From NCBI GenBank assembly GCA_029432815.1, contig JAROBA010000001.1:1-64000 (forward strand): a stretch of 64,000 nt of DNA, given 5' to 3'. Below, one piece after another: positions 940-58,786 of the stretch. This stretch comes from Pontiellaceae bacterium B1224 (lineage in GTDB: Bacteria > Verrucomicrobiota > Kiritimatiellia > Kiritimatiellales > Pontiellaceae). The stretch's first letter is position 1; the number at the start of each line of letters is the position of its first letter. A program made the translations under genes and the position numbers. The notes below the pieces were generated by a model that had not been told where the DNA came from, did no database searches, and saw nothing but the letters and a program-made list of their open reading frames with translations.

Positions 940-1686
940 ATGGAAATTGATAAACTAGAACACTTGTTGAACCGGTTTAAAAACGGTGAGGTGGATTTGC
1001 CGTCGACGCTTTCGACGCTGAAGCAGCTGCCCTTTGAAGATATGGGCTTTGCCAAAGTTGACCATCACCGCGCGCTGCGCACGGGTTATCCCGAAGTGGT
1101 TTTCTGTCAGGGAAAAACCCATGAGCAGGTGGAGAAAATTTTCCAGGCGTTGGAAAAACACAACGACAATATTCTGATGACCCGCGCCGAACCGGAATTG
1201 TTCCAACGATTGGAAAAAGTGGACAGCCGACTTGTTTACAACGAACTTGGTCGAACCATTACGCTGAACAAAACCGAAAAGAAAACGACCGGCCTCGTGC
1301 TGGTGATCTCCGCCGGAACAGCCGATATTCCGGTGGCCGAAGAAGCCGCTGAAACGGCTACCATCTCCGGTGCAAACGTGGAACGGATTTATGATGCGGG
1401 CGTGGCCGGCATTCATCGTCTGTTGGCTCACAACGATAAAATCCAACAGGCGCGAGCAATTGTCTGTGTGGCCGGAATGGAAGGCGCCCTGCCCTCCGTT
1501 GTCGGCGGTCTTGCGCCCTGCCCCGTGATTGCGGTTCCGACATCGGTCGGTTATGGCTCGCATCTCAACGGCATTGCCCCGCTTTTTACCATGCTGAATT
1601 CCTGTGCTCCGAACATTACGGTGGTGAATATCGACAACGGTTTCGGCGCCGGCTTTAATGCGGCCATGGTCAACGCTGATCGGTAG
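940..1686 (+). CDS. larB: LarB, nickel-pincer cofactor biosynthesis carboxylase/hydrolase
   Basis: LarB carboxylates the pyridinium ring of nicotinic acid adenine dinucleotide and hydrolyses it, the first step toward the nickel-pincer nucleotide cofactor of lactate racemase-type enzymes. The 248-residue protein has an N-terminal helical part and a C-terminal PurE-like (AIR carboxylase) domain from about residue 118, with VISAGTADIPVAEEAA and a GMEGALPSVVGGL stretch. Cys222 in MLNSCAPN matches the catalytic cysteine known near position 221 in LarB. The start at 940 follows an AGAAAGGA site; an upstream in-frame ATG (910) is less likely. Two exact palindrome copies (1141, 1201) are read in frame as FQALE and FQRLE. 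larC lies 56 kb away; larE and larA are not in the window. Confidence 0.92.
   Translation: MEIDKLEHLLNRFKNGEVDLPSTLSTLKQLPFEDMGFAKVDHHRALRTGYPEVVFCQGKTHEQVEKIFQALEKHNDNILMTRAEPELFQRLEKVDSRLVYNELGRTITLNKTEKKTTGLVLVISAGTADIPVAEEAAETATISGANVERIYDAGVAGIHRLLAHNDKIQQARAIVCVAGMEGALPSVVGGLAPCPVIAVPTSVGYGSHLNGIAPLFTMLNSCAPNITVVNIDNGFGAGFNAAMVNADR
1141..1215. repeat. two in-gene copies of the dispersed palindrome TTCCANNNNNTGGAA
   Basis: Exact copies at 1141-1155 and 1201-1215 lie inside larB. Other exact copies start at 9004, 15019, 15076, 15098, 16610, 17101, 17416, 17447, 18503, 18603, 19074, 22878, 22915, 23322, 23351, 26201, 27154, 28720, 34460, 34563, 35667, 37009, 37821, 38911, 41454, 42410, 42427, 46489, 46923, 50029, 51480, 52534, 53714, 54606, 56826, 57456, 57711 and 58081. 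One-mismatch copies start at 249, 5048, 14542, 15266, 23721, 37803, 38496, 45578, 45962, 46970, 48710, 49215, 51607, 54156, 55270 and 58433. Position 6 is usually A or G and position 10 usually T. Ten fixed bases predict about 0.06 chance copies in 64 kb. Confidence 0.95.
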
Positions 1687-1710
1687 AGGAAAAATACCCA
1701 CATAATGTTC

Positions 1711-1740
1711 TATATTTAAAACGTCGTTTTATTTATAAAA
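1711..1740. promoter_or_regulatory. AT-rich inverted repeat upstream of the IclR gene
   Basis: AAAACG-T-CGTTTT (1718-1730) is an inverted repeat in an AT-rich stretch between larB and the IclR-type gene. It could be an operator for the regulator, as IclR proteins usually bind near their own promoter, or a weak larB terminator. The sequence alone does not decide. Confidence 0.3.
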
Positions 1741-1792
1741 CAAATCCTCGATGTCGCTCCATCCTTCAGGGCGATGCAAATATGAGGTGGGT

Positions 1793-6957: not shown

Positions 6958-9900
6958 ATGAACAGATTTTTAAAATTTCAATTTTTTGCTGCGATTCTCG
7001 TGGCCGCTCCGCTGCTGATGAGCGGGGATGCCACAGCGGCAAAGGAAAAGCGCAATAAGGATCATGCAGACGCTGAACAGGTATTTCCTGTTTCCAAAGT
7101 GATTGAAGATGCACGGCTGGCGATTGAATTCCTGGGCAAGAAGCATCAGTCATACAAGGCAAAAGATTATTTGAAGAAACTCACTGCGCTGGAGACTGCG
7201 GGCGCGCCCTTCGAGAAGATTGACGAGTTGCGATACGAGGCCCTGGTGCTCAACAATCCTGAAGTCGACTTCGATAAGATTCTTTTCCGCAGCTCACAAT
7301 CCGATAGGTTCCCGTCCAATTGGCAGGGCAACTCCACGCTCCTCCGGCGCGGCGGCAAAGAGTCGAAACCCAGGTTCGGCGATGAGTTCCGGGTGCTGGA
7401 TCTAAATAGCAAAGCCATTAAAACCCTCTATCGCCCGACAGAAGAGCGGGAAGCCCTGATGGACATCTGCCTCGATTATTCCGGAGGGAAATTTCTCTAC
7501 TCCGGGATCGATCTCGATTCCAACACCTTTCAGGTCTATGAGATGAATCTGGCGGGTGGCCGACCGCGCAGGATCACGCCCATCCTTCCCGAAATCGACA
7601 ACTACAACGGCATTTACCTTCCCAACGGAAAAATCCTGTTCTGTTCCACGGCCTCCCTCAACTCGGTGCCCTGCGTCGGCGGGAGCGACTATGTCGGGAC
7701 GCTCTACGAAATTGATGCCGACGGCCGCAACATGAAACAGGTCTGTTTCGATCAGGAGAACGACTGGTATCCGTGGGTCAAAGAAACCGGCCGCGTCATG
7801 TACAGCCGCTGGGAATATACCGACAACTCGCACTATTTTACCCGCATCCTTTTGGAAATGAATCCCGACGGTACCGGCAACCGTTCCATCTACGGTTCCA
7901 ATTCCTACTGGCCCAACACCCTGTTCTATGCCAAACAGATTCCCGGGCACACCTCCAAATTTTCCGCCATTGTTTCCGGACACCATGGCACGGCACGCGC
8001 CGGCGAGCTGATCATTTTTGACCAGAGCAAAGGCGACTTTGAGGCCAATGGCGCACTGCAGCGCATTCCCGGTCGCGGTGAAAAAGTTGAGCCGGTCATC
8101 ATCGATAACTATATGAAAGGAAAGTGGCCCCGCTTTCTGCATCCCTATCCGCTGAGCGAAAACTTTTTTCTGGTTTCCGGTCAGATGCGCGATAAAGGAC
8201 CCTGGGCGCTCTATCTGGTTGATACGTTTGACAACATGGTCCAGCTGGGCGAAAGCGAGGACTACATGTTCGAGCCGGTGCCGATCAAGGTTCGTAAGGT
8301 ACCGCCCGTGATTCCCGATCGCCGACGCCCCGACGCAAAGAACGGCATGCTCTATATTCAGGACATCTATGAAGGCCCCGGGCTGGAAGGGCTGCCACGC
8401 GACACCGTAGCCGGGCTCCGCCTGTTTACCTATGGCTACGCTTATCGTTTAAGTGGCTCGCACGACGCGCTGGCCATTGAAGGAGCATGGGATACCAAGC
8501 GCATTCTGGGTACGGTGCCGATTGAAGAGGATGGATCCGTGATGGTCACCGTGCCGCACAGCCGGCCGATCTCGATCCAGCCGATCGATAAGGACGGCCG
8601 GGCGCTTCAGGTGATGCGCAGTTGGACGGTTGCCCAGCAGGGCGAAGTTGTGTCCTGCGTGGGTTGCCACGAACCAAGCAATACGTCACCGCTGTCCCGC
8701 CCTGCTCTGGCCTCGCGCAAGGCTCCGCAAAATCTAAGGCCATGGACGCAGGAAGAAATGCCGTACGGGTTCGGTTTCAAACGCGAGGTGCAGCCTGTTT
8801 TGGATCGCTATTGTGTCGGCTGCCACAATGGTTCGACCCCGGATCGACCGGACTTTAAGGACATCAGCGAGGTCCAGTTCGGCCGCAAAACGCGTTTCGG
8901 AAAATCCTATATGGCGCTGCATCCGTATGTTCGTCGTCCAGGGCCGGAGAGTAACCTGCACATGCTCAATCCCATGGAATACCATACCTCAACCAGCCCG
9001 CTGTTCCAGATATTGGAAAAAGGGCACTATGGTGTGGAGGTAGACGCTGCATCCATGCGCAAGCTGATTGAATGGGTCGATCTCAATGTCCCCTACCACG
9101 CCTCCTGGACCGAGGTGAACGATAGCGAGGCCACCCAGGAAATTGCAGAACTGACCGTTCAATACAAAAAGATATTCAGCGGCATCAACGATAACATCGA
9201 ATGGCTTCCGCCTTTGCCAAAACGTCCCAACTTCGAAAAACCAGCCCGAGTACCAAAGCCCCCCACCCCCCTGACTCTTACAGGTTGGCCGTTGGGGAAC
9301 CGAGCTGCCCCGGAGCGTCGCACCCTTTCTTTTGGTGGACAATCGTTGGATTTCGTTAAAATCCCCGCCGGAAAATATGTCATGGGATCCGTGACCGGCG
9401 CACCCGATGAATATCCACAGACCGTGGTCGAAATCAAAAAACCGTTCCTGATGTCCACCACGGAGATCACGAACGAACAGCTGCAGCAATTCCTGCCGGA
9501 CCACGACAGCCAGTTCATCGACCAGCAGTGGAAGGATCACATCTATGCCGGCTATCCGGCCAACGAACCGGAAATGCCGGCCGTGCGCGTCAGCTGGAAC
9601 GATGCCCTCGCGTTCACTCAGCAGCTATCTGAAAAGGTCGGCAGAAGGGTGACCCTGCCGACCGAGGCACAATGGGAATGGGCGGCGCGTGCCGGCTCCG
9701 ACCAGCCGTTTTTCTTTGGTGATTCGGGTTTCGAAAAGTATGCCAACCTCGCCGACCGGAGTATTGGCCTGCTTGCGGTGCGCGGCGTGAATCCAAAACC
9801 GGTTGCTGAAAGGTCCCGCACGCCGCTGAATAACTTTGTCCCGCGCGACGAATCATTCGACGACGGCCAAATGGTGCCGTCCGGCACGGCTCAGTATGCG

Positions 9901-14457: not shown

Positions 14458-15423
14458 ATGAGCTTCAACTCTCCCGTTTTGATATTGGCGCCGATGCGCG
14501 GCATTACGACGATGCACTATCGTCAGGCCTTCGTGCGCCACTTCCAGGGATTGGATATCGAGATGGCGCCGTTCATCCCGACGGTCAACGCCGAACGGAT
14601 CAATCCGAAACTGCTGAAGGATGTGCTCCCGGAAAACAACTCCGGCCTCCCACTGATTCCGCAGGTGATCGGGAATAATGCAGACGACTTCGTGCAGATG
14701 AATATCGCTCTCCACGATCTGGGCTATACCGAAGTCAACTGGAACCTGGGCTGTCCGCATAAACCGATCCGTAAAAAACGGCGGGGCTCCGGTTTACTGC
14801 CCTATCCCGACACCGTTGATACCATTCTCGATCAGGTCTGTGAGCGCAGCCCCGTTAAAATTTCCGTAAAAGTCCGGTTAGGCGTTTCCGACAAATCGGA
14901 ACTGATGAAGCTGATTCCTGTGCTGAACAAGTATCCGCTTAGCGAAGTCATTATTCATCCCAGAACCGCCGAACAAATGTATGACGGCACCGTCGATCTG
15001 GATGCCTTTGAAGAAGCTTTCCAGATCTTGGAACAAACCGTTTGCTATAATGGCGACATCAATGACCTCGCCTTTTTCCAATCCTTGGAAAAACGTTTTC
15101 CAACTATTGGAAGATTCATGTTCGGCCGCGGTTTGCTGGCCAATCCATTTCTTTGTGAGGAAATCAAATCCCCACATTTGCGCAAGTGTGCGGATCCCAT
15201 TCAGCGTATCGAGCAGTTTCACAACGATTTGCTTTCGCGCTATGAAGCAGTCCTGCATGGCGAACATCCAGTCCTTGGAAAAATGAAGGAGTTCTGGACC
15301 TACCAAACTCAGCACCTTTCCAATGGCCATCAGCTGTTCAAAAAACTTAAAAAAGCGCAACGACTGGGCAACTACAAAGATATTGTTTCCGAATTTCTGG
15401 CCGAAGCAGAGTGGACCGCCTGA
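14458..15423 (+). CDS. tRNA-dihydrouridine synthase
   Basis: A flavoenzyme that reduces uridine to dihydrouridine in tRNA D-loops. The 321-residue protein has the TIM-barrel Dus fold: LAPMRGITT for FMN binding, the catalytic Cys99 in NWNLGCPHKP, and IIHPRTAEQMYDG. The basic KPIRKKRRGSG after the cysteine is the expected tRNA contact. Start 14458 is directly downstream of the palindromic element and has no clear ribosome site; the frame is open further upstream. Four palindrome copies or near-copies lie in it: 14542 (near), 15019 (FQILE), 15076 (FQSLE) and 15098 (read as PTIG), plus a near-copy at 15266. Dus subtype cannot be decided. Confidence 0.9.
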   Translation: MSFNSPVLILAPMRGITTMHYRQAFVRHFQGLDIEMAPFIPTVNAERINPKLLKDVLPENNSGLPLIPQVIGNNADDFVQMNIALHDLGYTEVNWNLGCPHKPIRKKRRGSGLLPYPDTVDTILDQVCERSPVKISVKVRLGVSDKSELMKLIPVLNKYPLSEVIIHPRTAEQMYDGTVDLDAFEEAFQILEQTVCYNGDINDLAFFQSLEKRFPTIGRFMFGRGLLANPFLCEEIKSPHLRKCADPIQRIEQFHNDLLSRYEAVLHGEHPVLGKMKEFWTYQTQHLSNGHQLFKKLKKAQRLGNYKDIVSEFLAEAEWTA

Positions 15424-16335: not shown

Positions 16336-16806
16336 ATGAAACCGATCTGGCTCATTATCGACGGCTACAATGTACTTCACGTAGTAGACGAACTCAAAAC
16401 GCTGCTGAACTCTGATATCGAGCTCGCACGGCATCGGCTCATTCGAACGATCGAAGGAACGGCCCTTCGGATGGCCAAACAAACCACGGTGGTTTTTGAT
16501 GGAAAAGAAGGGGGGCAGGACGCCGCTCTCACCTCCAAACATCTGGAGATCTATTATTCCCCGGGAAAGCACACCGCTGACACCATCATCGAACGCCTCG
16601 TGGCACGTTTTCCAACCCCTGGAAAAATTCTCGTCGTCACCTCCGACCGCGCCGAGGCGAATGCCGTACTTAGCGACGGTGCCCAGGTGATGTCATCTCA
16701 GGAATTTATAGCCCAATGCAAAATCGATGCCCGCCGAACCATTCCAAAACAAATGCGCCCCGGCGAAAAACCGAAGCTCGGCGATCTATTTCCCGACGGA
16801 ATTTAG
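16336..16806 (+). CDS. NYN-domain (YacP-like) ribonuclease
   Basis: A 156-residue protein beginning LIIDGYNVLH, the signature of YacP/NYN (PIN-like) nucleases, with further acidic residues in VVFDGKEGG and VVTSDRAEAN that would complete the metal site. The family includes B. subtilis Rae1, which cleaves ribosome-associated mRNA. It is coupled to the patatin gene. A palindrome copy (16610) is read as FPTPGK. A hairpin follows the stop. Confidence 0.85.
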   Translation: MKPIWLIIDGYNVLHVVDELKTLLNSDIELARHRLIRTIEGTALRMAKQTTVVFDGKEGGQDAALTSKHLEIYYSPGKHTADTIIERLVARFPTPGKILVVTSDRAEANAVLSDGAQVMSSQEFIAQCKIDARRTIPKQMRPGEKPKLGDLFPDGI

Positions 16807-16878: not shown

Positions 16879-17814
16879 TCACGATATACTATCTATAACA
16901 ACTTCGGCTTTGAACCGCGCCACATCTTCGGGTTTCAGATAGCCCGATAGCAGATTAAGCGCATTCGCCGCACCGCAGGCCATGCCCTGTTTAAGTCCAT
17001 CCGAAATATCCAGCCCCTCATTCAGCGCTACCGCCAAACCCGCCGTTACCGCATCGCCGCTGCCCACCGGGTTAATTGCTTCGATCTTCGGCGGATAAAG
17101 TTCCAGACATTGGAACGCATCCACATAAAACGCCGACTTGCTTCCGCGCGTAATTAAAACCGATTGCGCACCGCGTTGCATCAACTCCCGGCAGGCTGCC
17201 ATCAAATCCGATCCGCCGACCGTGGCCAGCAATTCCACATCATTAATTTTCACCACCGCCGGCTCGTGCTTCAGCGCCAAAAGCAATGGTTCACTCGGTG
17301 CATCAATAATCACCCGTCCGCCTCGGCCATGAACCAGCTCGCAAATATGAGCATAGGCCTCAACCGGCGCCCCCGCTGGCAGTTTTCCGGAGATGGGAAC
17401 CACCGCACCTGAAAGTTCCAACGATTGGAAAAGCTCCATCATCCTCTTCCAATCATTGGAAGAAATCGGCGGCATTTCCTCCACCAGCTCCGTCGTCTCC
17501 GGATTGCCCGATTCCACCAGTGTCTGACATATCCGCGTTTCTCCATCCACTTCAACATGCTGAAAGCCAACCCCCTCCGCTTCCAACATCTTTTCAAGCA
17601 ACCGACCGTTTGAGCCCCCGACAAATTCAACTAACGCGGCGGCATTTCCCAGCTGATGTACCATCCGAGCGGTGTTTGCGCCCTTCCCGCCAATACCTAC
17701 CGTGACCTTAACAGCCCGGTTTACTATTCCTTTTTCAACTTTTTTGAACTCGATAATGCGCTGCACACATGGTGTAAAGCCGCAACAGATAATGGGTTTT
17801 GATAATGTCTTCAT
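16879..17814 (-). CDS. PfkB-family sugar kinase (1-phosphofructokinase-like)
   Basis: A 311-residue carbohydrate kinase of the ribokinase/PfkB family. The N-terminal VGIGGKGANTARMVHQLG and the C-terminal NPVGSGDAVTAGLAVAL anion-hole and catalytic Asp segment are diagnostic. The VGIGGKGAN form is closer to hexose-phosphate kinases (FruK, LacC) than to ribokinase. No PTS or aldolase gene is adjacent, so the substrate is open. Three palindrome copies (17101 FQCLE, 17416 FQSLE, 17447 read as SNDWK) lie in it. Convergent with the NYN gene. Confidence 0.88.
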   Translation of the reverse strand: MKTLSKPIICCGFTPCVQRIIEFKKVEKGIVNRAVKVTVGIGGKGANTARMVHQLGNAAALVEFVGGSNGRLLEKMLEAEGVGFQHVEVDGETRICQTLVESGNPETTELVEEMPPISSNDWKRMMELFQSLELSGAVVPISGKLPAGAPVEAYAHICELVHGRGGRVIIDAPSEPLLLALKHEPAVVKINDVELLATVGGSDLMAACRELMQRGAQSVLITRGSKSAFYVDAFQCLELYPPKIEAINPVGSGDAVTAGLAVALNEGLDISDGLKQGMACGAANALNLLSGYLKPEDVARFKAEVVIDSIS

Positions 17815-18428: not shown

Positions 18429-18556
18429 CGCATAAAACACCGTAAGTCCGCTCGAGCGGAAGACCGGGCGGAACCGATCTCTCCATGACGGCGGGCTGAA
18501 ACTTCCAACCTTTGGAAAACCCCAACGCATTTGACGCATGAAACAGCGCAAAGCCG
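18424..18556. repeat. imperfect direct repeat plus palindrome copy after broken hsdM
   Basis: TTTGACGCATAAAACACCG (18424) and TTTGACGCATGAAACAGCG (18530) agree at 17 of 19 bases and then diverge. An exact copy of the 15-bp palindrome (18503-18517) lies between them and another (18603-18617) follows. The element may be a remnant of a dispersed repeat that ended the hsdM frame. Confidence 0.55.
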
Positions 18557-18658
18557 GCCATTCGCGCGTCCGGCTTTATGCCTTGTAAATTTAACGATTT
18601 TTTTCCAGACATTGGAAAATAATCCCCTATGTTGATTTTTGTTTACAAGGGGATATGC

Positions 18659-19067: not shown

Positions 19068-19517
19068 TTAATTTTCCAGACCTTGGAAAATTCCGGTCAT
19101 ACGCCCTGTCAGCTCGGACCCATCCACTTTTACCGCATCGAGCAGCAGCTTTTCATCCCCGCGAAGCGCCACTGTACTCAGCCAGGCGGCAGACATTCCT
19201 TCCCGGCTTTCTGCGATCAGCACCAGTGAATCGGCTACTGCATCTGAGTCTATATTCCGAGCGGTTGCTTCGGCAATATGAATGAAGGCATAGCCGTTTC
19301 GTTCGGTCAGCATCAGCTTCAATTCCCGTACCATCTCATCTTTATCCATGCCGGCAATCGGAATGACTTCCATTAACCCATCGTCATTAAAGATGAAAAA
19401 GATTTCCACATGGGTCCCCGCTTCCAGAAATTGTCGGCGGGACTCTTCGTTCAACATTTCGATCCATTGATTCAGTGATCCGGCACGATCTTCTTTGTTC
19501 CATTCCGGTGGCTGCAT
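19068..19517 (-). CDS. conserved-looking protein of unknown function
   Basis: The 149-residue soluble protein begins MQPPEWNKEDRAG and contains AGTHVEIFFIFNDDGLMEVIPI and YAFIHIAEATARN. I do not recognise the family; it resembles small globular housekeeping proteins rather than anything secreted. Its extreme C-terminus, GIFQGLEN, is encoded by an exact palindrome copy (19074-19088), so the repeat forms the end of the gene. Convergent with the PhnA-like gene and divergent from the ROK regulator. Confidence 0.65.
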   Translation of the reverse strand: MQPPEWNKEDRAGSLNQWIEMLNEESRRQFLEAGTHVEIFFIFNDDGLMEVIPIAGMDKDEMVRELKLMLTERNGYAFIHIAEATARNIDSDAVADSLVLIAESREGMSAAWLSTVALRGDEKLLLDAVKVDGSELTGRMTGIFQGLEN

Positions 19518-21546: not shown

Positions 21547-23064
21547 TTACATAACCGCTTTAATGCGCTGACCCAGATTTTTTTCAGACTCAAGCGAACG
21601 TACGAGCTCGCTGGCCATTTCATCCAGCGGCTCCGCACTTTCCTTCAGGTAGTCACTCATCCATCTATAGCCGGCAAGATCGTCGTGAACCTTTTTGGCT
21701 TTTCCGAGCATGGTGGTCCGAATGTGATAGTCAAGACTCTGCAGTTTACTGGTGCTTACCAATGATTTCGGATTGGAGATTTTGGCCAATTCCTTTTTAT
21801 CGAAATCCTCATTTCTAACAAGCCCCACGAACTCCTGATAATTTCGATTGAACGCTTTCACCATCAAACGGATTTCTTCTTCTGTTTTCGGAAAGTGGAA
21901 TTCATACGGAGCGGAAACGCGGTCGCTTCGTGAAGAATAACTTGAAAGGATTTGCCGGGCTGAAGCCTCATAATCTTCGTCTCCGTTCCAGTATTCGACC
22001 AGGATATGCATGATTTGCAGAATGTTCCTGGTATCCGCAATCAGGTAGGTCTGATTCAAAAACGCCCGCATATCAACCTTCACCCAACCATCGTCCGGAA
22101 TACGCACGCCATAACGCCGTGTTTTCCCGAAGCGGGTTCCTCTGAAAATCTGTTTGCGCTCATCCTCTTTATCAAACTTGAGTCCAAAAGCAACATAGGT
22201 GGCAACCCCCAGCACCCGGCCCTCAAAATCAAGAATCGGGCTGCCGCTGTTACCGGAAACAATGTCGGCATCGACTTCAATATCGTACGGACCAACCCCC
22301 AGCACTTCACCGCGCAGCTCTGTTGCAACATTTCCGCCGGCGCTGTTACCATATATCGCAATCTCCTGGCCGATGTAGGGCGGTTTTTCCGCCAGATTCA
22401 GCACACCAAGTTGTTTGTTTTTTTTCAGATTCAATTCAAAACGCACCAGGTCTCGAGTGCGACTGAATTCAAAACGGTCGAACTTCACCGGGCCGCCATG
22501 CATAGAGAGCAGCTCCAGCTGAGTGGCCCCCATGAAATTATGCTGATTGCTGAACAGATAGGTTTTACCATCCTGCTCAGCAACAAAAGCGGACCCCCGA
22601 CCTACGCCCGTTTCAACAAAAACCAGGGCCGCATCCACATCGCTGAACTGAACGCCTTTCCCATCATCCTCTTCCTCTTCCGGTTCCTCCACAACATTAA
22701 CTGTGGCAACCTCGACCATGCTGTCATCTCCCAGGAACGCAATGGTGCCGTCAAACCCCAGCACCGTACCCGTTGAAACCGCCACCGCATTAAGAGCTTC
22801 GAGCATATTCATGTTTTCAAACGAAATACTGATCTTGCGTGTATCCACCCCATCAACGCGGGCCTGAATTGCAAAACTTCCAAGGATTGGAATACCGCTG
22901 TTCTGCGCCTCCCTTTCCAAACGCTGGAAAATATATGTGGTCGGCATGCGCACAAATTCGCCCGGCGGCGCATTCACTTTTTGAAGCGCATCCTCAACTT
23001 CACCACCGAGAACATTCAGTCCCGCCAGTAGGGTCAGCAAAAAAGTAAGCATCCGTTTGATCAT
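21547..23064 (-). CDS. secreted trypsin-like serine protease with STN-like N-terminus
   Basis: A 505-residue exported protein. The catalytic triad is visible as His175 (SNQHNF), Asp205 (TRDLVRF) and Ser273 (SGNSGSP), as in trypsin/HtrA-like proteases. There is no PDZ domain. After the signal peptide, residues 40-115 (ISISFENMNMLEALNAVAVSTG) resemble the secretin/TonB short N-terminal (STN) fold, followed by an acidic linker EEPEEEEDD. Start 23064 follows GGAG. The C-terminal 200 residues are helical and unassigned. Followed directly by the lipoprotein gene, which may be a partner. Palindromes at 22878 and 22915 (FQRLE). Confidence 0.8.
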   Translation of the reverse strand: MIKRMLTFLLTLLAGLNVLGGEVEDALQKVNAPPGEFVRMPTTYIFQRLEREAQNSGIPILGSFAIQARVDGVDTRKISISFENMNMLEALNAVAVSTGTVLGFDGTIAFLGDDSMVEVATVNVVEEPEEEEDDGKGVQFSDVDAALVFVETGVGRGSAFVAEQDGKTYLFSNQHNFMGATQLELLSMHGGPVKFDRFEFSRTRDLVRFELNLKKNKQLGVLNLAEKPPYIGQEIAIYGNSAGGNVATELRGEVLGVGPYDIEVDADIVSGNSGSPILDFEGRVLGVATYVAFGLKFDKEDERKQIFRGTRFGKTRRYGVRIPDDGWVKVDMRAFLNQTYLIADTRNILQIMHILVEYWNGDEDYEASARQILSSYSSRSDRVSAPYEFHFPKTEEEIRLMVKAFNRNYQEFVGLVRNEDFDKKELAKISNPKSLVSTSKLQSLDYHIRTTMLGKAKKVHDDLAGYRWMSDYLKESAEPLDEMASELVRSLESEKNLGQRIKAVM

Positions 23065-23310: not shown

Positions 23311-23342
23311 AAAAGGCCGGCTTCCAGAGATTGGAACCGGCC
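23311..23342 (-). terminator. lysC terminator built on the palindrome
   Basis: On the minus strand GGCCGG-TTCCA, a five-base loop and TGGAA-GCCGGCC are followed by TTTTT. The inner arms are an exact palindrome copy (23322-23336); a second copy (23351-23365) lies between it and the lysC stop. So the dispersed palindrome forms part of an intrinsic terminator. Confidence 0.8.
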
Positions 23343-23369
23343 CCGTACTTTTCCAATGTTTGGAAACAT

Positions 23370-26191: not shown

Positions 26192-26224
26192 AAAAAGGGA
26201 TTCCAATGATTGGAATCCCTTTTG
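26192..26224 (-). terminator. uppP terminator built on the palindrome
   Basis: AAAAGGGATTCCA, a five-base loop and TGGAATCCCTTTTT on the minus strand form a strong stem with T-run; the centre is the exact palindrome copy 26201-26215. It lies 24 bases after the uppP stop and could act on both strands. Confidence 0.85.
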
Positions 26225-36935: not shown

Positions 36936-37042
36936 GCATCGTAATTGGAAATCATGCCGCGGAATGGATTCCGCGCGTAGTCTGTCCCACATTCTTGAGG
37001 AACAATTCTTCCAATGGTTGGAAAAGGCGCGCATGGTGCGGC

Positions 37043-37794: not shown

Positions 37795-37836
37795 CCAGCG
37801 CTTTCCAAGACACGGAATTATTCCAACCATTGGAAA

Positions 37837-38901: not shown

Positions 38902-38926
38902 AATATCAATTTCCAGGGATTGGAAC

Positions 38927-41365: not shown

Positions 41366-41476
41366 TTTTTACTCCTTGTAACGGTTCGTATTTTTTGAAA
41401 TATACGAATTTAGAGTGTTGCGTAATAATTTCGTTCAATGAATTCTGTACGATTTCCAAGCCTTGGAAAACGGATT

Positions 41477-42385: not shown

Positions 42386-42441
42386 TGGAATTTTCCAATG
42401 TCCGGAACTTTCCAGATGTTGGAAAGTTCCAATCATTGGAA
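42377..42441. repeat. hairpin and two palindrome copies at the pseudopilin/lpxA junction
   Basis: Arms TCCGGACATTGGAA and TTCCAATGTCCGGA (42377-42406) around TT, followed by exact palindrome copies at 42410-42424 and 42427-42441, the last ending four bases from the lpxA stop. Three palindromic units in 65 bases. Confidence 0.85.
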
Positions 42442-46330: not shown

Positions 46331-46778
46331 AGAAACTATTGTGAACACCACTCTGGATCAGGCCTGGGATTTCATTCGCAATCCGGCCAATCTGAACAAA
46401 ATCACACCGGAGGATATGGCATTTGAAATTATCTCCGATTTGCCGGAGGAAATGTTTGAAGGCCAGTTGGTCGAATACCGCGTAAAAATTCCAATGATTG
46501 GAACGAAGCCCTGGCTCAGTGAACTGAAACATATTGTTCCTCAATCGTCCTTTGTGGATGAACAGAAGATCGGGCCGTACAAACTTTGGTATCACTACCA
46601 TGGAATTGAAGCATGCGCCGAAGGGGTGCGTTTTATCGACCGGGTGACCTATGAAGTGCCGTTCGGAATCATTGGAAAATGGGCGCATGCTCTCTTCATA
46701 CGCAAGACACTTGAACGAATTTTTAAACATCGTGAACACTGCTTCAATACCCTGTTTACGCCCGATAAAGCACAGTAA
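46314..46778 (+). CDS. SRPBCC-family (START-like) protein
   Basis: A 154-residue ligand-binding fold: beta strands and a final helix with HKETIVNTTLDQAWDFIRNPANLNKITPE, typical of polyketide cyclase/START-like proteins. It probably binds a hydrophobic molecule. The start 46314 follows GAGGGG within the SDR gene end. A palindrome copy (46489) is read as PMIGT. Function unproven; it is translationally coupled to the SDR gene. Confidence 0.8.
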   Translation: MYTLHKETIVNTTLDQAWDFIRNPANLNKITPEDMAFEIISDLPEEMFEGQLVEYRVKIPMIGTKPWLSELKHIVPQSSFVDEQKIGPYKLWYHYHGIEACAEGVRFIDRVTYEVPFGIIGKWAHALFIRKTLERIFKHREHCFNTLFTPDKAQ

Positions 46779-46920: not shown

Positions 46921-46950
46921 CCTTCCAATCTTTGGAAGGAGGGCCTTTTT
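46921..46950 (+). terminator. hairpin before the sigma-factor gene, built on the palindrome
   Basis: CCTTCCAA-TCT-TTGGAAGG (palindrome copy 46923-46937) followed after six bases by a T-run. A second near-copy (46970-46984) lies just before the start codon. It could terminate the upstream set and isolate the sigma-factor operon. Confidence 0.55.
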
Positions 46951-49545: not shown

Positions 49546-50565
49546 ATGATTGATTTTATGAACCTTGCTGAAAAAGGAAAAATGCCGGACACCGCCATTC
49601 GGGCCGGAATCAGAAAATTGTTGCGCGATCGATTGAAACAGGAATCGAAAGCCTCGCACGAAGATCAGCTGGAGGAACTTTATGCCTTCAGCCGAATGAT
49701 GGCTGCTTCGCCTATTGCGGTGGCCACCAACACCGCCAACGAACAGCACTATGAAGTCCCTTCCGAGCTGTTCCAGACCTTCATGGGTCCGCACCTGAAA
49801 TACAGTTGTGGCTACTGGCCCGTTGCAGACACCTCGCTCGATGGTTCCGAAGCCTTCATGCTCGACCTAACCTGCAAGCGCGCCGAGCTCGTCGACGGGA
49901 TGGACATACTGGAGCTCGGCTGCGGCTGGGGCTCGCTGTCCCTCTGGATGGCGGAACAGTTCCCGAATTCAAAAATCACCGCCGTTTCCAACTCGCGCAC
50001 TCAGAAAAAGTTTATCGATGCCCGCGGCTTCCAGAATCTGGAAGTCATTACCGCCGACATGAACGACTTCACCATTACGCATCGGTTCGACCGCGTGGTC
50101 TCTGTTGAAATGTTCGAACACATGCGCAACTGGCATGAGCTGTTGAGACGGGTTAACGCTTGGCTGAAACCCGACGGAAAACTGTTCGCCCATATTTTTG
50201 TAAATCGAGAACTGGCCTACCTGTTCAACGATTCCGGCGAAGTAAACTGGATGGCAGAACACTTTTTCAAGGAAGGCATGATGCCTTCCGAATCGCTGTT
50301 TTCACTCACCAACACTCATATGCAGGTGGAACGTCATTGGCGCGTCAACGGACGGCACTACGCAAAAACACTGCGAGCCTGGCTCAACCGTATTGATCAG
50401 AATTCCAAAGCCGCCATCGCCATACTGGAGAAGCAGTACGGGACTGAGGAGGCCCGACTCCAGTTCGGGCGATGGCGCATTTTCTTTATGGCTTGTGAAG
50501 AACTCTTTGGATTCAACGGAGGTGAAGAATGGTACGTCGCTCACTATCTCATGCACAAACGGTAA
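49546..50565 (+). CDS. CFA-synthase-like SAM-dependent methyltransferase (first copy)
   Basis: A 339-residue soluble enzyme with SAM motif LELGCGWGS and the SVEMFEHMRNW segment, related to cyclopropane-fatty-acid synthases but with a short N-terminus and a divergent pocket. It could methylate or cyclise an unsaturated acyl chain. A GGAGATTA ribosome site precedes the start. The gene shares 37 bases with the next one. A palindrome copy (50029) is read as FQNLE. It is one of two CFA-type enzymes in the operon, so different chain positions or products are possible. Confidence 0.85.
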   Translation: MIDFMNLAEKGKMPDTAIRAGIRKLLRDRLKQESKASHEDQLEELYAFSRMMAASPIAVATNTANEQHYEVPSELFQTFMGPHLKYSCGYWPVADTSLDGSEAFMLDLTCKRAELVDGMDILELGCGWGSLSLWMAEQFPNSKITAVSNSRTQKKFIDARGFQNLEVITADMNDFTITHRFDRVVSVEMFEHMRNWHELLRRVNAWLKPDGKLFAHIFVNRELAYLFNDSGEVNWMAEHFFKEGMMPSESLFSLTNTHMQVERHWRVNGRHYAKTLRAWLNRIDQNSKAAIAILEKQYGTEEARLQFGRWRIFFMACEELFGFNGGEEWYVAHYLMHKR

Positions 50566-51143
50566 GCACACTGATGCTGACAGGAGTAATCATGACAACA
50601 GGCTGCACCTCCAAATCAAAAGACCGTTCTCCCGACTGGACGCGAAATACCGTTATGGTTGAGCAGACGGCCGATGCACCGACGATGGAACCGGGAAGTA
50701 AAACGGAGCAGGAAGCGTTGCAGCGGTTCAACGATTTCTACGAAGAGTATTCCACGGAAGCCATCAGCAACGGAGTTCGCGGACTCTATGCTGACGACGC
50801 CTGGTTCGGCGATCCCTTCCACATTGTGGAAGGCATCGATGAGATAGAGCACTATTTCCTCGTAATGGCCGAGCCGGTGGAAGCGTGCAGCTTCACCGTC
50901 GATTCCATGCAGCGCAGCGACAACGATTATTTCGCCCGTTGGACCATGGTACTCGAATCAAAAGCCGCCAAAGGCGAAATCATCACAACCATCGGCATTT
51001 CGCACGTGCGATTTAATCCGGAAGGAAAAATAACTTTTCAGCAGGACTACTGGGATTCCAGTGCTATGCTCGACCGGTTACCGGTGGTGGGCTTCTGGAC
51101 CCGCCTCGTGAAAGATAAAATCAACAAAGGACTCGAAGAATGA
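50529..51143 (+). CDS. NTF2-like lipoprotein
   Basis: A 204-residue protein: lipobox (MTTGC) after MVRRSLSHAQ and a nuclear-transport-factor-2-like fold (RFNDFYEEYSTEAISNGVRGLYADDAWFGDP), a common small binding or enzyme scaffold. The start at 50529 has an AGGAGGTGA-like site inside the CFA gene; a later ATG (50574) is possible. Membrane-anchored; role unknown. Coupled to the glutathione peroxidase gene by a four-base overlap. Confidence 0.78.
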   Translation: MVRRSLSHAQTVSTLMLTGVIMTTGCTSKSKDRSPDWTRNTVMVEQTADAPTMEPGSKTEQEALQRFNDFYEEYSTEAISNGVRGLYADDAWFGDPFHIVEGIDEIEHYFLVMAEPVEACSFTVDSMQRSDNDYFARWTMVLESKAAKGEIITTIGISHVRFNPEGKITFQQDYWDSSAMLDRLPVVGFWTRLVKDKINKGLEE

Positions 51144-51700
51144 AGACCTTCATTGCATTAGCGATTATGGGGATGGTTTCAGGATGCGTATCAGAACCAA
51201 AGGAGATTAACGTGAACTCTATTTATGAAATTGAAGCCCAAACTATTTCCGGCGAAACAATCAAGCTGGAGGCGTATAAAGGAAAGACGCTGCTGATTGT
51301 TAACACCGCCAGCAAATGCGGTTTCACCGGACAATATGAAGGCCTCGAAAAACTCTATAAAACCTATCAGGATCAGGGCTTCGTTGTGCTCGGGTTTCCT
51401 TCCAACGATTTCCTGAAACAGGAACCGGGCAGTAACGAGGAAATTGCTTCCTTCTGCCAGATCAACTACGGCGTCACGTTTCCAATGTTTGGAAAAATAT
51501 CCGTCAAGGGCAGCAATCAGCATCCGCTCTACACCTACCTGACCTCGAAACAAACCGACCCGGAATTCGCCGGTAAAATTTCATGGAACTTCAATAAGTT
51601 CCTGATTTCCAGTGATGGGAAAATAATCGGTCGTTTTGGAAGCCGAACCAAACCGGAAGATTCTAAATTGGTTGAAGCCATTGAGGGCGCGTTGAAATGA
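51140..51700 (+). CDS. glutathione peroxidase-family lipoprotein
   Basis: A 186-residue thiol peroxidase. Cys60 in NTASKCGFTGQ is the peroxidatic residue (cysteine rather than selenocysteine), with GFPSNDF and WNFNKFLI completing the active site. The lipobox VSGC (Cys16) anchors it to a membrane, unusual for this family and consistent with protecting lipids. It fits a lipid-peroxide stress operon. A palindrome copy (51480) is read as FPMFGK. Overlaps the next gene by four bases. Confidence 0.92.
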   Translation: MKTFIALAIMGMVSGCVSEPKEINVNSIYEIEAQTISGETIKLEAYKGKTLLIVNTASKCGFTGQYEGLEKLYKTYQDQGFVVLGFPSNDFLKQEPGSNEEIASFCQINYGVTFPMFGKISVKGSNQHPLYTYLTSKQTDPEFAGKISWNFNKFLISSDGKIIGRFGSRTKPEDSKLVEAIEGALK

Positions 51701-52212: not shown

Positions 52213-52754
52213 AACCAAAAATCATCCTGTCGATTTTACTTTCCAGCCTAACGCTTTGGGCCGGCACCTTGGAAGTGGGCGGCATTCGATTGCCGACTCA
52301 ACAGGATGATTTTAAATTGCAGGGAGCCGGACTGCTCCGAAAAGGTTTCATTTTTAAAATCTATGTCGGTGCGCTTTACCTACAGAACGAAGAGCATGTC
52401 GACGAAGTGCTTGGCGCTGTTCCAAAACGGTTGGACATACATTATTTCCACCACACCCCGAAAAAGCACATGATTCGTGTGGCGGAAGAAACGCTGAAGA
52501 AAAATCTCACCAAAGAACAATATGAAAAGCTGCTTCCAATGATTGGAAAACTGCACGACGCCTACCTCAACGGACAAAAGAGTTCGGTGGCCTCTCTCAT
52601 TTATCAACCCGGCGAAGGGCTCACCTATGCCTTCGATGACCGGATCGTCATCACCATCCCCGACGATGAATTTGCGAATGCGTATTTTAAAATCTGGCTG
52701 GGCGAAGAGCCCAGCAGTCCCCTCATTAAAGAAGCGATGCTTCAGGGCGGGTAA
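52209..52754 (+). CDS. chalcone-isomerase-family protein, exported
   Basis: A 181-residue protein with a signal peptide (to about residue 19) and the chalcone-isomerase-like fold (GIRLPTQQDDFKLQGAGLLRKGFIFKIYVGALYL). In bacteria these are thought to bind fatty acids rather than isomerise flavonoids. It is part of the coupled operon, and fatty-acid binding fits the context. A palindrome copy (52534) is read as PMIGK. Confidence 0.85.
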   Translation: MKPKIILSILLSSLTLWAGTLEVGGIRLPTQQDDFKLQGAGLLRKGFIFKIYVGALYLQNEEHVDEVLGAVPKRLDIHYFHHTPKKHMIRVAEETLKKNLTKEQYEKLLPMIGKLHDAYLNGQKSSVASLIYQPGEGLTYAFDDRIVITIPDDEFANAYFKIWLGEEPSSPLIKEAMLQGG

Positions 52755-52762: not shown

Positions 52763-54019
52763 ATGGAACAGGGAGAAAAAAAACATATTGCCGTGATTGG
52801 CTCCGGCGTTGCCGGACTCACCGCAGCTCATCTGCTGCAACGGAAGCACAAGGTAACGATCCTTGAAAAGAGCGAGCGAATTGGCGGGCACACCAACACC
52901 GTCATTATTCCGGACGGGCCCGATGCGGGCACACCCGTCGATACCGGGTTCATTGTGATGAACCATCGGAATTATCCGCTCTTCACCAAGCTGTTGGATC
53001 AACTGAAGGTTGAACTGCGCGACAGCGATATGTCGTTCGGCTATCACGACCTACCCTCCGGCCTGCAGTATTGCGGTTCGGGACTGGACGGCCTTTTTGC
53101 ACAACGGAAAAACATCATCTCCCCCGCCTTTCACCGGATGGTGCGCGATACGCTGCGGTTCTTTAAAACCGCAAATGCGGACTTAAACAATGCGGGACTG
53201 GCCACCGAATCGTTGGGCGACTATCTGAAGCGAAATAAATTCGGCCCCGAGTTCATTGAGCATCATCTGCTGCCCATGGGATCGGCTATCTGGTCAACCC
53301 CCTGCGAAGAGATGCTCGAATTCCCGGCGCTGAGCTTCATGCAGTTCTTTCATAACCATGGATTGCTGACGGTGAACGATCGCCCCCAATGGCGAACCGT
53401 GATCGGCGGCAGTTGCGCATACATTAAAAAAATGAAAGCGGAATGGAAAAACGTTGAGATCCGAACCGGTGTGGACATTTCCGGCATTCACCGAAATGCA
53501 GGAGCGCAAATCTGCTTCGCGGATTCACCGCCCGAACAGTTCGACGAAGTGGTGATTGCCACTCACGCCGATCAGGCCTTGATGTTGCTCGACGACCCTT
53601 TCCCCGAAGAGCAGGAATCGCTCGGTTGCTGGAGCTATACAAAAAGCCGCACGCTGCTGCATACCGACGAATCGGTCATGCCGCCGCTTCGAAAAGTCTG
53701 GAGCTCCTGGAACTTCCAACGATTGGAAGGTACTAAAACCTCGCTGACCTATCACATGAATCGGCTCCAGGGTTTGGAAACGGATCGGCAGTATTTTGTT
53801 TCGCTCAACCTGCCGAAAGACCCTAAAGGCATTATTCGCGAGTTTAATTACGAACACCCGATGTATACCCGCAAAGCGCTGGCCAGCCGAACCAAACTGA
53901 AAGAACTCAACGGACAAAAGCACACCTGGTTTGCGGGCAGCTATTTCGGGAACGGCTTTCACGAAGATGCCGTTCGATCAGGTGTTGAAGTGGCGGAAGC
54001 ATTCGGGATCGATTTATGA
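52763..54019 (+). CDS. FAD-dependent amine-oxidase-type oxidoreductase
   Basis: A 418-residue flavoprotein with the FAD-binding motif GSGVAGLTAAHLL near residue 12, then GHTNTV and the C-terminal HTWFAGSYFGNGFHEDAVRSG. It belongs to the NAD(P)/FAD-binding proteins that flank DUF1365 and CFA genes in many genomes. Substrate possibly a fatty acid in the CFA pathway. The ATG lies eight bases after the previous stop. A palindrome copy (53714) is read as FQRLE. Confidence 0.9.
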   Translation: MEQGEKKHIAVIGSGVAGLTAAHLLQRKHKVTILEKSERIGGHTNTVIIPDGPDAGTPVDTGFIVMNHRNYPLFTKLLDQLKVELRDSDMSFGYHDLPSGLQYCGSGLDGLFAQRKNIISPAFHRMVRDTLRFFKTANADLNNAGLATESLGDYLKRNKFGPEFIEHHLLPMGSAIWSTPCEEMLEFPALSFMQFFHNHGLLTVNDRPQWRTVIGGSCAYIKKMKAEWKNVEIRTGVDISGIHRNAGAQICFADSPPEQFDEVVIATHADQALMLLDDPFPEEQESLGCWSYTKSRTLLHTDESVMPPLRKVWSSWNFQRLEGTKTSLTYHMNRLQGLETDRQYFVSLNLPKDPKGIIREFNYEHPMYTRKALASRTKLKELNGQKHTWFAGSYFGNGFHEDAVRSGVEVAEAFGIDL

Positions 54020-54780
54020 GAAGCCGGATCTACAGCGGAAAAGTAATGCATGCCCGGAAATCGCCGGTGCAGCACCGTTGGACGTTCCCCTTCTATTTCT
54101 ACGCCATCGATCTCGATGAGCTCCCCGAGTTGGACCGAACCGTGAAAGGCTTCGGTTACAATCATTGGAAACCGGTCAGCCTGCAGGACGCGGATTATCT
54201 CAAAAATTCGGGAAGTTTTCGTGAACGACTCAGCGAGCACGTTGACCTCGCCGGCGTTGAGCGGATTGTGCTGATCACCGTCGCCCGTTTCATGGCAAAG
54301 GTATTTAACCCTGTCAGTTTTTACTATTGCCTGGATGCCGCTGACCGCCCCGTCTGCATGGTGGCCGAAGTGAATAACACCTTTAAAGAGCGGCACCTTT
54401 ATATGATGAAGGCAGACGGCAGCTTTCCGGTGCAATGCCGCGACACCAAACAGTTTCACGTTTCGCCGTTCAACACGATGGACGGGCACTATGAGTTCTC
54501 ATTCTCCGAACCCGGCGATGAACTGGAAATACAAATCACGCTGATCCGTGAAAACGAGGAAATCATGGTTGCAGCGATGTGGGGCACCGGCAGAGAACTC
54601 ACAACTTCCAACCTTTGGAAAACAGTTTTGCGTCATCCCTTCACGGCCGCGCTGACGATGCCGCGCATCATCTGGCAGGCCGCCCTGCTCTACTATAAGA
54701 AAAAGCTGCCGGTTTTTCGTAAGCCGGAGCCGTCTCACGCGAACACCATCATTGGAAAGACAAAACACATATCATCCTGA
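54016..54780 (+). CDS. DUF1365 protein
   Basis: A 254-residue soluble protein with YSGKVMHARKSPVQHRWTFPFYFYAIDLDEL near the start and RFMAKVFNPVSFYYCLDAADRPVCMVAEVNNTF, as in DUF1365 proteins. Function unknown; the family co-occurs with the FAD oxidoreductase and CFA synthase. Four-base overlap with the FAD gene. A palindrome copy (54606) is read as SNLWK. Confidence 0.88.
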   Translation: MRSRIYSGKVMHARKSPVQHRWTFPFYFYAIDLDELPELDRTVKGFGYNHWKPVSLQDADYLKNSGSFRERLSEHVDLAGVERIVLITVARFMAKVFNPVSFYYCLDAADRPVCMVAEVNNTFKERHLYMMKADGSFPVQCRDTKQFHVSPFNTMDGHYEFSFSEPGDELEIQITLIRENEEIMVAAMWGTGRELTTSNLWKTVLRHPFTAALTMPRIIWQAALLYYKKKLPVFRKPEPSHANTIIGKTKHISS

Positions 54781-56183: not shown

Positions 56184-56184
56184 A

Positions 56185-57480
56185 TTACTCGGCAGGGGTT
56201 GTGGCGTAGCGGTAGGCGGCGTAGGGATTGGCGAAAGAGGTGCCGTAGTGGAGCTGGCTGTCATACTCCACCGTCCCGGAGACAAAAGCATCGGCTTCTG
56301 TATTTGAATAGTCTGCTATATTTCCAAATTCATCCGTGGCACCAATCGATATGGTAGCCGAGCTGGCAGCCGGGTTGACCGCAACATCGAGCCCATCGTT
56401 TCCGCTGGCCACAAATACTGCGACGCCTTGCGACGCGGCGTATTGCACCGCATCTTCCAGAAAGCCGACCTCTTCATAGGTGCCGAAGCTCAAATTGATC
56501 ACACCGATACCGGAATTGATCGCATAGTTAACGGCTCCCATCAAAACATCCGACGAGGTCATGCCGTTTTCATCAAATACTCTAACGGCCAGGATGGGAG
56601 CTCCCGTATCCCCGGCTGATTCTCCGAGCGGCGTAATGGCTCCCGAGGCAATCAACGCAACCAGCGTTCCGTGACCCGTCGGATCAGAAATTTCGGAGGA
56701 GGGATTCAGCGCATCATACGCACCGCGAATAAAATCCATATCTTTATATTGCGGATCCAGACCGGAATCAAATACAGCAATGGCCGTCTCACCGGGCGCC
56801 AGGCCCAGATTCATGCCCGCATGGGTTCCAGAGATTGGAACCGCCGGGTTTGCGAGGTTTGGAAAAGCCAAATTCGGCTCTGCTCCATCCACCCCATCAT
56901 GTGCATTTGCAATTTTCATCGCCTGTTCCACCGTCATTCCTTCATTCAGCTTAATACGGTAAATACCCGGCGGATCAATGACTTCAATCACGGTGCCGTT
57001 CAATTTTTTCAACAATGCATTCAGATCAGCAATGTTTGCACCGTCTTTGAACCCCACCATGATTTCACCTCGCACATATTTAACTCCATTGGTTCCCTCA
57101 ACTATATCCAGCACGCGAGTGGTATCAGAGATGGGAAGAGCCTCAGAGGCATTTTCTCCAAAAACCCGAATGGAAGAAACCTGATAAAATGCCCCCAACG
57201 GGCTGTCCACCTGTTTCCATTGAATCGAATAACTGTTGGGTGCAACTAGCTGATTAATCAGACGTTCAACTTTTGTATTCTCCCAATCGCCATCAATGCG
57301 TCCGAGTTCCAGCGAGGGATCGATCAGGACCTTTGCGCCCCGTTGCTCAAAGAGCTGTAGTATTTTTGAAAGCGGAGCCCCATCAGCCTTCAACCACGCC
57401 CGCTCCCCTTCAATTCGAAGCGAAGCAGCATGGGCCGTCAGCCCCATTAATAGGATTCCAATGATTGGAAGAATTCTCAT
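56185..57480 (-). CDS. secreted S8 (subtilisin-like) protease, 3'-truncated
   Basis: A 431-residue exported protein with Asp238 (AVFDSG), His270 (GHGT) and Ser415 (GTSFA). The usual helix and trailing region after the serine are missing: only 16 residues follow before the stop, which abuts the tandem hairpin repeat. After the signal peptide, residues about 20-105 resemble the STN/secretin short domain (APLSKILQLFEQRGAKVLIDPSL), then a propeptide-like part. Activity is uncertain given the truncation. Palindromes at 56826 and 57456. Confidence 0.8.
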   Translation of the reverse strand: MRILPIIGILLMGLTAHAASLRIEGERAWLKADGAPLSKILQLFEQRGAKVLIDPSLELGRIDGDWENTKVERLINQLVAPNSYSIQWKQVDSPLGAFYQVSSIRVFGENASEALPISDTTRVLDIVEGTNGVKYVRGEIMVGFKDGANIADLNALLKKLNGTVIEVIDPPGIYRIKLNEGMTVEQAMKIANAHDGVDGAEPNLAFPNLANPAVPISGTHAGMNLGLAPGETAIAVFDSGLDPQYKDMDFIRGAYDALNPSSEISDPTGHGTLVALIASGAITPLGESAGDTGAPILAVRVFDENGMTSSDVLMGAVNYAINSGIGVINLSFGTYEEVGFLEDAVQYAASQGVAVFVASGNDGLDVAVNPAASSATISIGATDEFGNIADYSNTEADAFVSGTVEYDSQLHYGTSFANPYAAYRYATTPAE

Positions 57481-57547
57481 AGCAGAAGAATAACGCCCTA
57501 CCTCTCGAAAACAATGCTGGAAAACTGAATGTATTAAAATTTCAAGC

Positions 57548-58786
57548 TCATTCAAAACCCTTCTTCGCGGCCTCGTAGACCTCTCGGACCGCGACATCGT
57601 TCTCATCAGCCAATCTCCGGCAATCTTCAATCTCCGGGGAGACCGTGACGACCTTCCCGTTCCGCTTGCCGACTTTCAGGCGAATCGCGCCAAACGGGGT
57701 TTCCAGGGTTTGGAAACTTCGATCGAGTACGGTTCGTTTAGAAAAATGTTCACGAATACCGAACGTGGTGGATTCCGCAAAGATCAGATCGAGCATGCGT
57801 TCGCGGTCGGCCGGTAAACACAGAACCGTCAGCAATATTCCGGAACGCTGTTTTTTCATTTGAACCGAAGTCGTAAAAACATCCAACGCACCGGCTTTGA
57901 GCAGTTGATCGAAAAGGCACCCTACCAATTCAGGCGTTGTGTCATCCAAATTACACTCCAGCACCAGCACCTCATCTGCCGTCTGATCTTCCGCCGATTC
58001 GTACAGCGTGGCGCGCAGTAAATTCGGCCGGCCGTTTAATTTCCGATGTCCGAAACTATAGGCTGTTTTAACGGCCCGGCTTCCAACCATTGGAACTTCC
58101 GCAGTCCGCCAACTGGCCACCAGCGCGGCACCGGTTGGTGTCACCATCTCAAAGGGCTCATCGACATCCTGTACGGGGAATCCCTCCAAAATACGGAGCG
58201 TGGCCGGCGCCGGATTTGGGTAGGTGCCATGCGCGCATTCAATCGTTCCGTGCCCCTGCGGCAGGTTTTGGATGGATACTTCATCCACGCCGAGCTTATG
58301 CAGTGCCAGACAGCTCCCGACAATATCGACAATCGAATCCATCGCCCCGACTTCATGAAAATGAATCTCTTCAATATTAATGCCATGAATCGCCGCTTCC
58401 GCCTCGCCGATCCGCTGAAAAACTTCCAATGCCTGGATCTTTACAGGGTCTGGAAGTTCGCTCGCTTCGATCAGTTTTTTAATCGTGCTCAAATGCCGAC
58501 CGTGATCATGTGAATGATCATGTTCATCGGAATGGTTATGTGAATGATCGTGCTCATGCCCGTGGTCGTGATGATGATGGTGGTGGTGCTCGTGCAGTTT
58601 CACCTTTCCTCGCACCCCGCTCATACCCTGTTCGACTATTTCATCGACTACGATTTCAAATGGGTCGACCTTCAGTGATTTCAGCTCCTCATTCAGTTCG
58701 TCGACCGAAACACCCAACCCAACCAGCGCACCGAGAATCATATCCCCGCTCGCCCCGCCAATACTTTCGAAATGTAATGTTTTCAT
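57548..58786 (-). CDS. larC: LarC, nickel insertase for the pincer cofactor
   Basis: LarC inserts nickel into the pyridinium-bis-thiocarboxylate nucleotide (CTP-dependent cyclometallase). The 412-residue protein begins FESIGGASGDMILGALVGLG, diagnostic of the family, and carries a His/Asp-rich linker (about residues 69-102) that probably stores or delivers nickel. A single frame, with no larC1/larC2 frameshift. Paired with larB at 940, but separated by 56 kb; larE is outside the window. Palindromes at 57711 (FQTLE) and 58081; near-copy 58433. Confidence 0.94.
   Translation of the reverse strand: MKTLHFESIGGASGDMILGALVGLGVSVDELNEELKSLKVDPFEIVVDEIVEQGMSGVRGKVKLHEHHHHHHHDHGHEHDHSHNHSDEHDHSHDHGRHLSTIKKLIEASELPDPVKIQALEVFQRIGEAEAAIHGINIEEIHFHEVGAMDSIVDIVGSCLALHKLGVDEVSIQNLPQGHGTIECAHGTYPNPAPATLRILEGFPVQDVDEPFEMVTPTGAALVASWRTAEVPMVGSRAVKTAYSFGHRKLNGRPNLLRATLYESAEDQTADEVLVLECNLDDTTPELVGCLFDQLLKAGALDVFTTSVQMKKQRSGILLTVLCLPADRERMLDLIFAESTTFGIREHFSKRTVLDRSFQTLETPFGAIRLKVGKRNGKVVTVSPEIEDCRRLADENDVAVREVYEAAKKGFE

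Follow-up and report, generated by a model that had tools for sequence, protein, structure and literature searches.

Few highly iterated genome motifs are known, and for one of them, HIP1 (GCGATCGC), the function is still in dispute. Known uptake sequences are reported to be evenly spaced along the genome. The sites of MatP (matS) and of Fis are short dyads with a degenerate centre that are read by a dimer, and neighbouring sites are in helical phase. The operators of Lrp/AsnC, NrdR and NtrC are dyads of odd or 5-5-5 type, with tandem sites about 31-32 bp apart and few in any one genome. For the HIP1 of cyanobacteria, methyltransferases provide the main functional clue (PMC4390886). In H. influenzae 65% of the uptake sequences lie in open reading frames while the non-coding share is above expectation, and known uptake sequences are non-palindromic (PMC1939737). 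Here we analyse a 15-bp palindrome, TTCCAN5TGGAA, that recurs throughout a stretch of 64,000 nt (the window; contig JAROBA010000001.1 of Pontiellaceae bacterium B1224) and the 5.38-Mb draft genome to which it belongs (G000). We propose tentatively, with a confidence that falls a little short of even, that the element would be the double-stranded recognition site of one sequence-specific homodimeric putative DNA-binding protein, having a chromosome-wide role in part of the class Kiritimatiellia. No description of the motif was found in the open-access literature, either by exact motif strings or by combining Kiritimatiell* with palindromes or uptake sequence.

The window contains 41 exact copies of TTCCAN5TGGAA. 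One hundred dinucleotide shuffles gave a mean of 0.09, and 41 was reached in none. This agrees closely with the original prediction, made from the letters of the window, of 40 copies against 0.06 expected. The cloud of one-mismatch copies that it described is also real, although it comprises 31 rather than about 16. The genome as a whole contains 2237 exact copies, compared with 3 of the reversed pattern that served as control, so the possibility raised at that time, that counts outside the window might be at the level expected from composition, fails. An origin of the copies in one recent duplication is likewise excluded, since the flanks are not conserved beyond about 2 bp and the copies originate by substitution in unrelated genes (below). 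In 184 kb of G000 we found 108 exact, 79 one-mismatch and 134 two-mismatch copies; the corresponding numbers for the reversed control were 0, 6 and 84.

The palindrome stands as first described, while its ten fixed bases can be extended. The fuller consensus is (T)TTCCAR-N-S-N-YTGGAA(A), i.e. TTCCARNSNYTGGAA. Within the same 184 kb, R at position 6 and Y at position 10 are combined in 104 of the 108 copies. About 92% of copies have G or C as the centre base. Directly outside the 15-mer T/A is favoured. Among the fixed bases C3, C4 and T2 seldom change, and T1 and A5 change most. On the coding strand of the genic copies in the window the inner forms G..T (14) and A..C (11) are roughly equal, so that there is no base-pair bias on the transcribed strand; this argues for recognition of the signal in double-stranded DNA and against an RNA hairpin. 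A structured RNA is also not indicated by the nine array loci of relatives (see below), where no Rfam match was found.

The copies are kept individually within genes. In motif-rich relatives of the same genus, 36 of 50 coding sites with an ortholog (72%) retained every one of the ten fixed bases, and in rich genomes farther off within the order 11 of 14 did so; control windows gave 12.7 and 10.4% respectively. In motif-poor relatives retention was 0 of 43 (controls 8.0%). In carB, guaA and carA the peptides at the site (VPILGT, LPILGI and VPMFGI respectively) are identical or nearly so across relatives; the codons that spell the site occur in motif-rich genomes only, and the adjacent wobble bases drift freely. 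No insertion of a site was seen in the ortholog alignments, which indicate that in the genome of the window the copies arise by point substitution, not by insertion.

The site also leaves its mark on proteins. Read in frame 0 the motif encodes FQxLE, and this peptide occurs 29 times in the 184 kb, 28 of these carrying the site, compared with once in 122 kb of motif-poor relatives. Where the peptide sequence gives an opportunity for the site in frame 1 it is present in 29 of 32 cases, against 0.06 predicted from codon usage; this count is not independent, because the motif may itself create the peptide. The motif-poor relatives hold other residues at the positions of sites, for example Y in place of F. 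Amino acid sequences give way to the DNA site, and proteins have been reshaped to fit the motif. The signal in the DNA is thus strong enough to rewrite amino acid sequences proteome-wide.

With genes called by a simple home-made caller, 26 of the copies in the window are inside genes and 15 are intergenic, in good agreement with the 26 and 14 originally given. Overall 63% of copies are genic, housekeeping genes being included, at a density of about one copy per 2.4 kb, and the intergenic density is 2-4 times that in coding sequence. The hottest place in G000 is the first 1-9 bp after stop codons, with 15.8 copies per kb of positions compared with 0.4-3.4 elsewhere in 3′ gaps. Fisher p values for this hot spot, calculated like all our statistical tests without regard to kinship among genomes, are 1e-6 in G000, 0.003 in G016 and 0.06 in G032. 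The original prediction also noticed copies beside stop codons and before tRNAs; two of the three tRNAs in the window (tRNA-Pro and tRNA-Arg) adjoin a copy. Its spacing of roughly 1.6 kb is correct as a mean only; gaps longer than 100 bp in G000 are Poisson-like, and pairs less than 50 bp apart exceed expectation 3-4-fold.

We considered whether the motif could be the operator of a conventional global transcription regulator, the intergenic copies being functional and the genic ones by-products. The higher intergenic density is as expected for this, and in sister families arrays of the site are positioned just upstream of starts or just after stops. However, the strongest intergenic hot spot follows stop codons rather than lying at promoters, and the genic copies are individually retained. 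We regard a global operator as quite improbable. The original prediction had listed four roles, namely an uptake signal, a chromosome-organising site, an operator for an abundant regulator and a self-spreading palindrome. A local operator is unlikely given about 2200 sites of which 63% are genic, in housekeeping genes among others.

Abundance of the motif differs greatly between relatives, the genomes of which are mostly metagenome-assembled drafts. Counts among 58 relatives range from 3 to 2297, and within a single genus from about 20 copies, in multi-megabase genomes, up to 2297. Across the phylum (289 genomes) copies are numerous only in some families of the class of the window. Among genome records with names, those with two sites 31/32 bp apart are mostly labelled Kiritimatiellae, Kiritimatiellales or Pontiellaceae, or carry the older labels 'Lentisphaerae' and 'Verrucomicrobia'. 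The motif is limited to some lineages of one class, Kiritimatiellia, the class being judged by the record names. No replacement motif was found in 11-20 kb of each of the motif-poor relatives. A close pair of copies was present in 50 stretches of viral contigs, most of which lack the complete RNNNY form or the density of the pattern.

Some individual genomes deserve comment. G024 and G027 are close relatives with 359 and 1146 copies respectively, and several sites of G024 are one or two synonymous changes off the motif, as if decaying. G004 has 670 copies in 8.7 Mb, yet a 20-kb core region around carAB is free of them, which sets it apart from the other rich genomes of the genus. Lastly, in G108, a 2.4-Mb genome from another class of the phylum, the reversed control AAGGTN5ACCTT occurs 55 times compared with 0-15 elsewhere; this is possibly another highly iterated dyad.

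In other families of the class the site is found mostly in intergenic arrays of 2-8 copies, with a spacing fixed at 31/32 bp and largely unrelated spacers, as in G048, G057, G104 and G200. The arrays are placed directly upstream of start codons or directly after stop codons, and no gene family of regulator-like appearance recurs beside them. In G134 the layout is 22-(30/31)n-22, i.e. with 22-bp steps at both ends. The non-seed spacings in loci of the class, i.e. those that the search pattern did not select, are 21, 22, 30, 41, 42, 51, 53, 61-66 and 94 bp, with R=0.79 at 10.5 bp, and the unbiased spacings of G032 give R=0.81 at the same helical period. The arms are constant while the centre differs by genus, being AGSCT in G048 and G112, YRSYR in G115, AYSRT-like in G134 and RNSNY in G000. 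An array upstream of an alaS-like gene occupies the same position in G134 as in G148, that of G148 being shorter by exactly one 31-bp unit, and at this locus relatives of another genus have arrays with a different centre.

Two further explanations can be judged against these arrays. The first is a self-spreading short repeat that copies itself around the genome, in the manner of miniature inverted-repeat transposable elements (MITEs) or of repetitive extragenic palindromes and their mosaics (REP/BIME). Whole arrays with similar spacers are present at about 80-90 places in G134 and G148, and the arrays of G057 share spacers, so copying does occur in sister families and this part of the earlier suggestion holds. 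In the genome of the window spread by insertion is rejected. Copies have a substitution origin at conserved codon positions and unrelated flanks, and in place of the 20-40 bp palindrome with a GTAG/CGTC tag that marks REP/BIME we find a 15-mer that lacks the tag. The alaS-like array too has kept its location across two genera, that of G134 being one 31-bp unit longer than that of G148. We consider self-spreading very improbable.

The second is a site of the HIP1 kind, associated with a DNA methyltransferase or with a repair system that acts in favour of the sequence or protects it. Like HIP1 of cyanobacteria, the motif is a highly iterated palindrome found both within and between genes. Its consensus is neither GCGATCGC nor a derivative of this, and the preference for R, G/C and Y inside the N5, the T/A flanks and the helical phasing would be unexpected for the target of a bipartite methylase. 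A connection of this kind is improbable.

By contrast, the symmetry of the palindrome, its G/C centre and the helical phase seen in sister lineages are arguments for a dimeric DNA-binding protein. Such a protein, if of changing specificity, would explain the dyad with its G/C centre, the phased arrays, a centre that shifts between lineages while the arms stay constant, and the joint loss of sites. The number of sites and their location in ordinary genes point to a chromosome-wide role. A putative dimeric protein would read the dyad and occupy thousands of places; its function would be nucleoid-associated or architectural, and the site would not be the operator of a few genes. Adjacent dimers would touch when on one face of the DNA. 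Sister lineages may retain an older state of intergenic arrays, while in the order of the window the site may have been free to enter genes as single copies. The motif-poor relatives could be accounted for if the binder was lost or altered there. Taken to its full extent this would be a class-specific chromatin system, with a dimer on a 15-bp dyad at thousands of places, phased arrays in the sister lineages (22-31n-22 in one genus), and a site that broke out into coding DNA in the order of the window and reshaped its proteins. In that complete form we hold the idea to be speculative and somewhat doubtful.

Several observations weigh against a dimeric protein of this kind. Close pairs in G000 and in G016, the nearest of the rich relatives examined, show no 10.5-bp phase (R=0.20), so cooperation between neighbouring sites in the genome of the window is unsupported. 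No origin/terminus bias was obvious in the complete relative G032 when sampled about every 200 kb; the sites extend across its whole chromosome and are not restricted to a macrodomain as matS is. About 2200 sites individually kept at a cost in amino acids would be easier to understand under molecular drive than under selection for packaging. Finally, no binder was found; neither of two candidates, the single Lrp and a Fis-like protein, follows the distribution of the sites.

Lrp was attractive for the geometry of its operators. It is present in 71 of 80 genomes, including all the rich ones, but is equally conserved where the motif is gone; a site upstream of its own gene was seen only in G032, with a one-mismatch site in G031. 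A short Fis-like helix-turn-helix (HTH) protein is overrepresented in the motif-rich part of the genus (Mann-Whitney p=0.001, not corrected for kinship). It is missing from other rich families, with no clear ortholog in the rich genomes G034, G040, G048, G112, G134 and G200, whereas the poor genomes G023 and G026 have one, and it was rejected as the binder. G000 has a small Fis-like HTH-only protein of about 70 aa from the last start (C127, 175652-175858), the gene of which itself contains a site (FQSLE). In family f2 the related proteins are fusions with a response-regulator receiver domain.

The main rival, which we think unlikely on balance, is that the motif is a DNA uptake sequence, i.e. 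that site-bearing DNA is preferentially taken up and recombined, so that sites accumulate by molecular drive like the uptake signal sequences (USS) of Pasteurellaceae and the DNA uptake sequences (DUS) of Neisseria. The profile is that of known uptake sequences, with about one copy per 2.4 kb and 63% of copies genic with an intergenic excess. The excess is genome-wide, in and between genes, and extends to core functions. The adaptation of amino acids to the site, the one-mismatch cloud, the mass loss in relatives, the dialects of the genera and the lack of a clear origin/terminus bias all conform, and ComEC, the uptake channel, is present. Spread into genes at a cost in amino acids is explained at least as well as it is by a protein site. 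Yet our motif is dyad-symmetric about a G/C centre, whereas known DUS and USS are non-palindromic, directional elements, and in place of their even spacing there are Poisson gaps with an excess of close pairs. The phased 22-31n-22 arrays of sister families have no obvious role in uptake. ComEC is found in 54 of the 58 relatives, rich and poor alike, so its presence does not discriminate; the same applies to the pseudopilins that were originally taken as weak support for uptake.

The sites of the window are given here as exact matches to TTCCAN5TGGAA, with gene context from our own caller and the strand entry left as '.'. Gene 940-1686 carries two in frame 0, at 1141..1155 (TTCCAGGCGTTGGAA; orthologous site kept in G008, G016, G027 and G021) and 1201..1215 (TTCCAACGATTGGAA; kept in G008, G016, G024 and G027); in G005 the latter is shifted by 2 bp and lies in a different reading frame. 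The dihydrouridine synthase gene has frame 0 sites at 15019..15033 (kept in G016, G005 and G024) and 15076..15090 (kept in G016), with another in frame 1 that is 22 bp from the second (15098..15112; kept in G016). A frame 1 site in gene 16336-16806 (16610..16624) is also kept in G016. Gene 7000-10665 has one in frame 0 (9004..9018). We note that adjacent genes in 2562-12531 show beta-propeller and MauG/hydrazine-synthase-like similarity, far below the family cut-offs.

Further genic sites are found in the pfkB-family kinase gene (17101..17115, 17416..17430 and, 31 bp from the latter, 17447..17461), at the 3′ end of gene 19068-19517 (19074..19088), and in the genes for a trypsin-like peptidase (22878..22892 and 22915..22929), a SNF2-family helicase (34460..34474, 34563..34577 and 35667..35681), a cyclopropane-fatty-acid-synthase-like methyltransferase (50029..50043), an NAD(P)-binding oxidoreductase-like protein (53714..53728) and a nickel-insertion (LarC-type) protein (57701..57715 and 58081..58095). 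Others lie at 46489..46503, 51480..51494, 52534..52548, 54606..54620 and 56826..56840, and one at 50817..50831 has a non-canonical C..G inner pair. The SNF2-family helicase (33485-36799) is like SCO1167 and pilus-regulating helicases, with weaker similarity to ZorD, all below cut-offs.

Intergenic sites follow stop codons by 33 bp (23322..23336), 4 bp (23351..23365, after the minus-strand gene 23370-24728), 1 bp (28720..28734), 8 bp (41454..41468) and 3 bp (42427..42441), the last being 17 bp from its neighbour at 42410..42424. The site at 38911..38925 fills a stop-to-start gap, 9 bp after the stop codon and 1 bp from the next start codon. That at 27154..27168 is 20 bp upstream of the minus-strand tRNA-Arg, 37821..37835 ends 1 bp before tRNA-Pro, and 57456..57470 is 8 bp upstream of a predicted start. 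The remainder are at 18503..18517, 18603..18617, 26201..26215, 37009..37023 and 46923..46937.

What sets the element apart is a strict 15-bp dyad that is present or lost within a genus, at known orthologous codons, with a centre that varies by genus and, in sister families, arrays in helical phase. Why a genome should fill up with a single short word can be tested directly here, by comparison of close relatives that have the motif with those that do not. Among known systems USS and DUS are alike in having thousands of copies, a genic majority with intergenic excess, amino acid accommodation, a mismatch cloud, loss in relatives and dialects; the motif differs as a 15-bp dyad with a G/C centre, unevenly spaced and found in phased arrays in relatives. 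HIP1 shares high iteration, palindromy, mostly coding location and lineage-specific abundance. Here the motif is bipartite (5-N5-5), with partial specificity in the spacer and phased arrays, and no methylase link is known, methyltransferases not having been searched for. REP/BIME elements are likewise palindromes near gene ends, clustered like the arrays of the sister families, while our motif has no GTAG/CGTC tag, no conserved flank and a substitution origin inside genes. The operators of Lrp/AsnC, NrdR and NtrC agree in dyad type and in the 31-32 bp tandem spacing, and differ in copy number; Lrp does not track the motif here. Compared with matS/MatP and Fis the motif has 50-100 times the copy number of matS, is far stricter than the Fis consensus and shows no clear origin/terminus bias; what it shares with these systems is a short dyad with a degenerate centre and helically phased neighbours.

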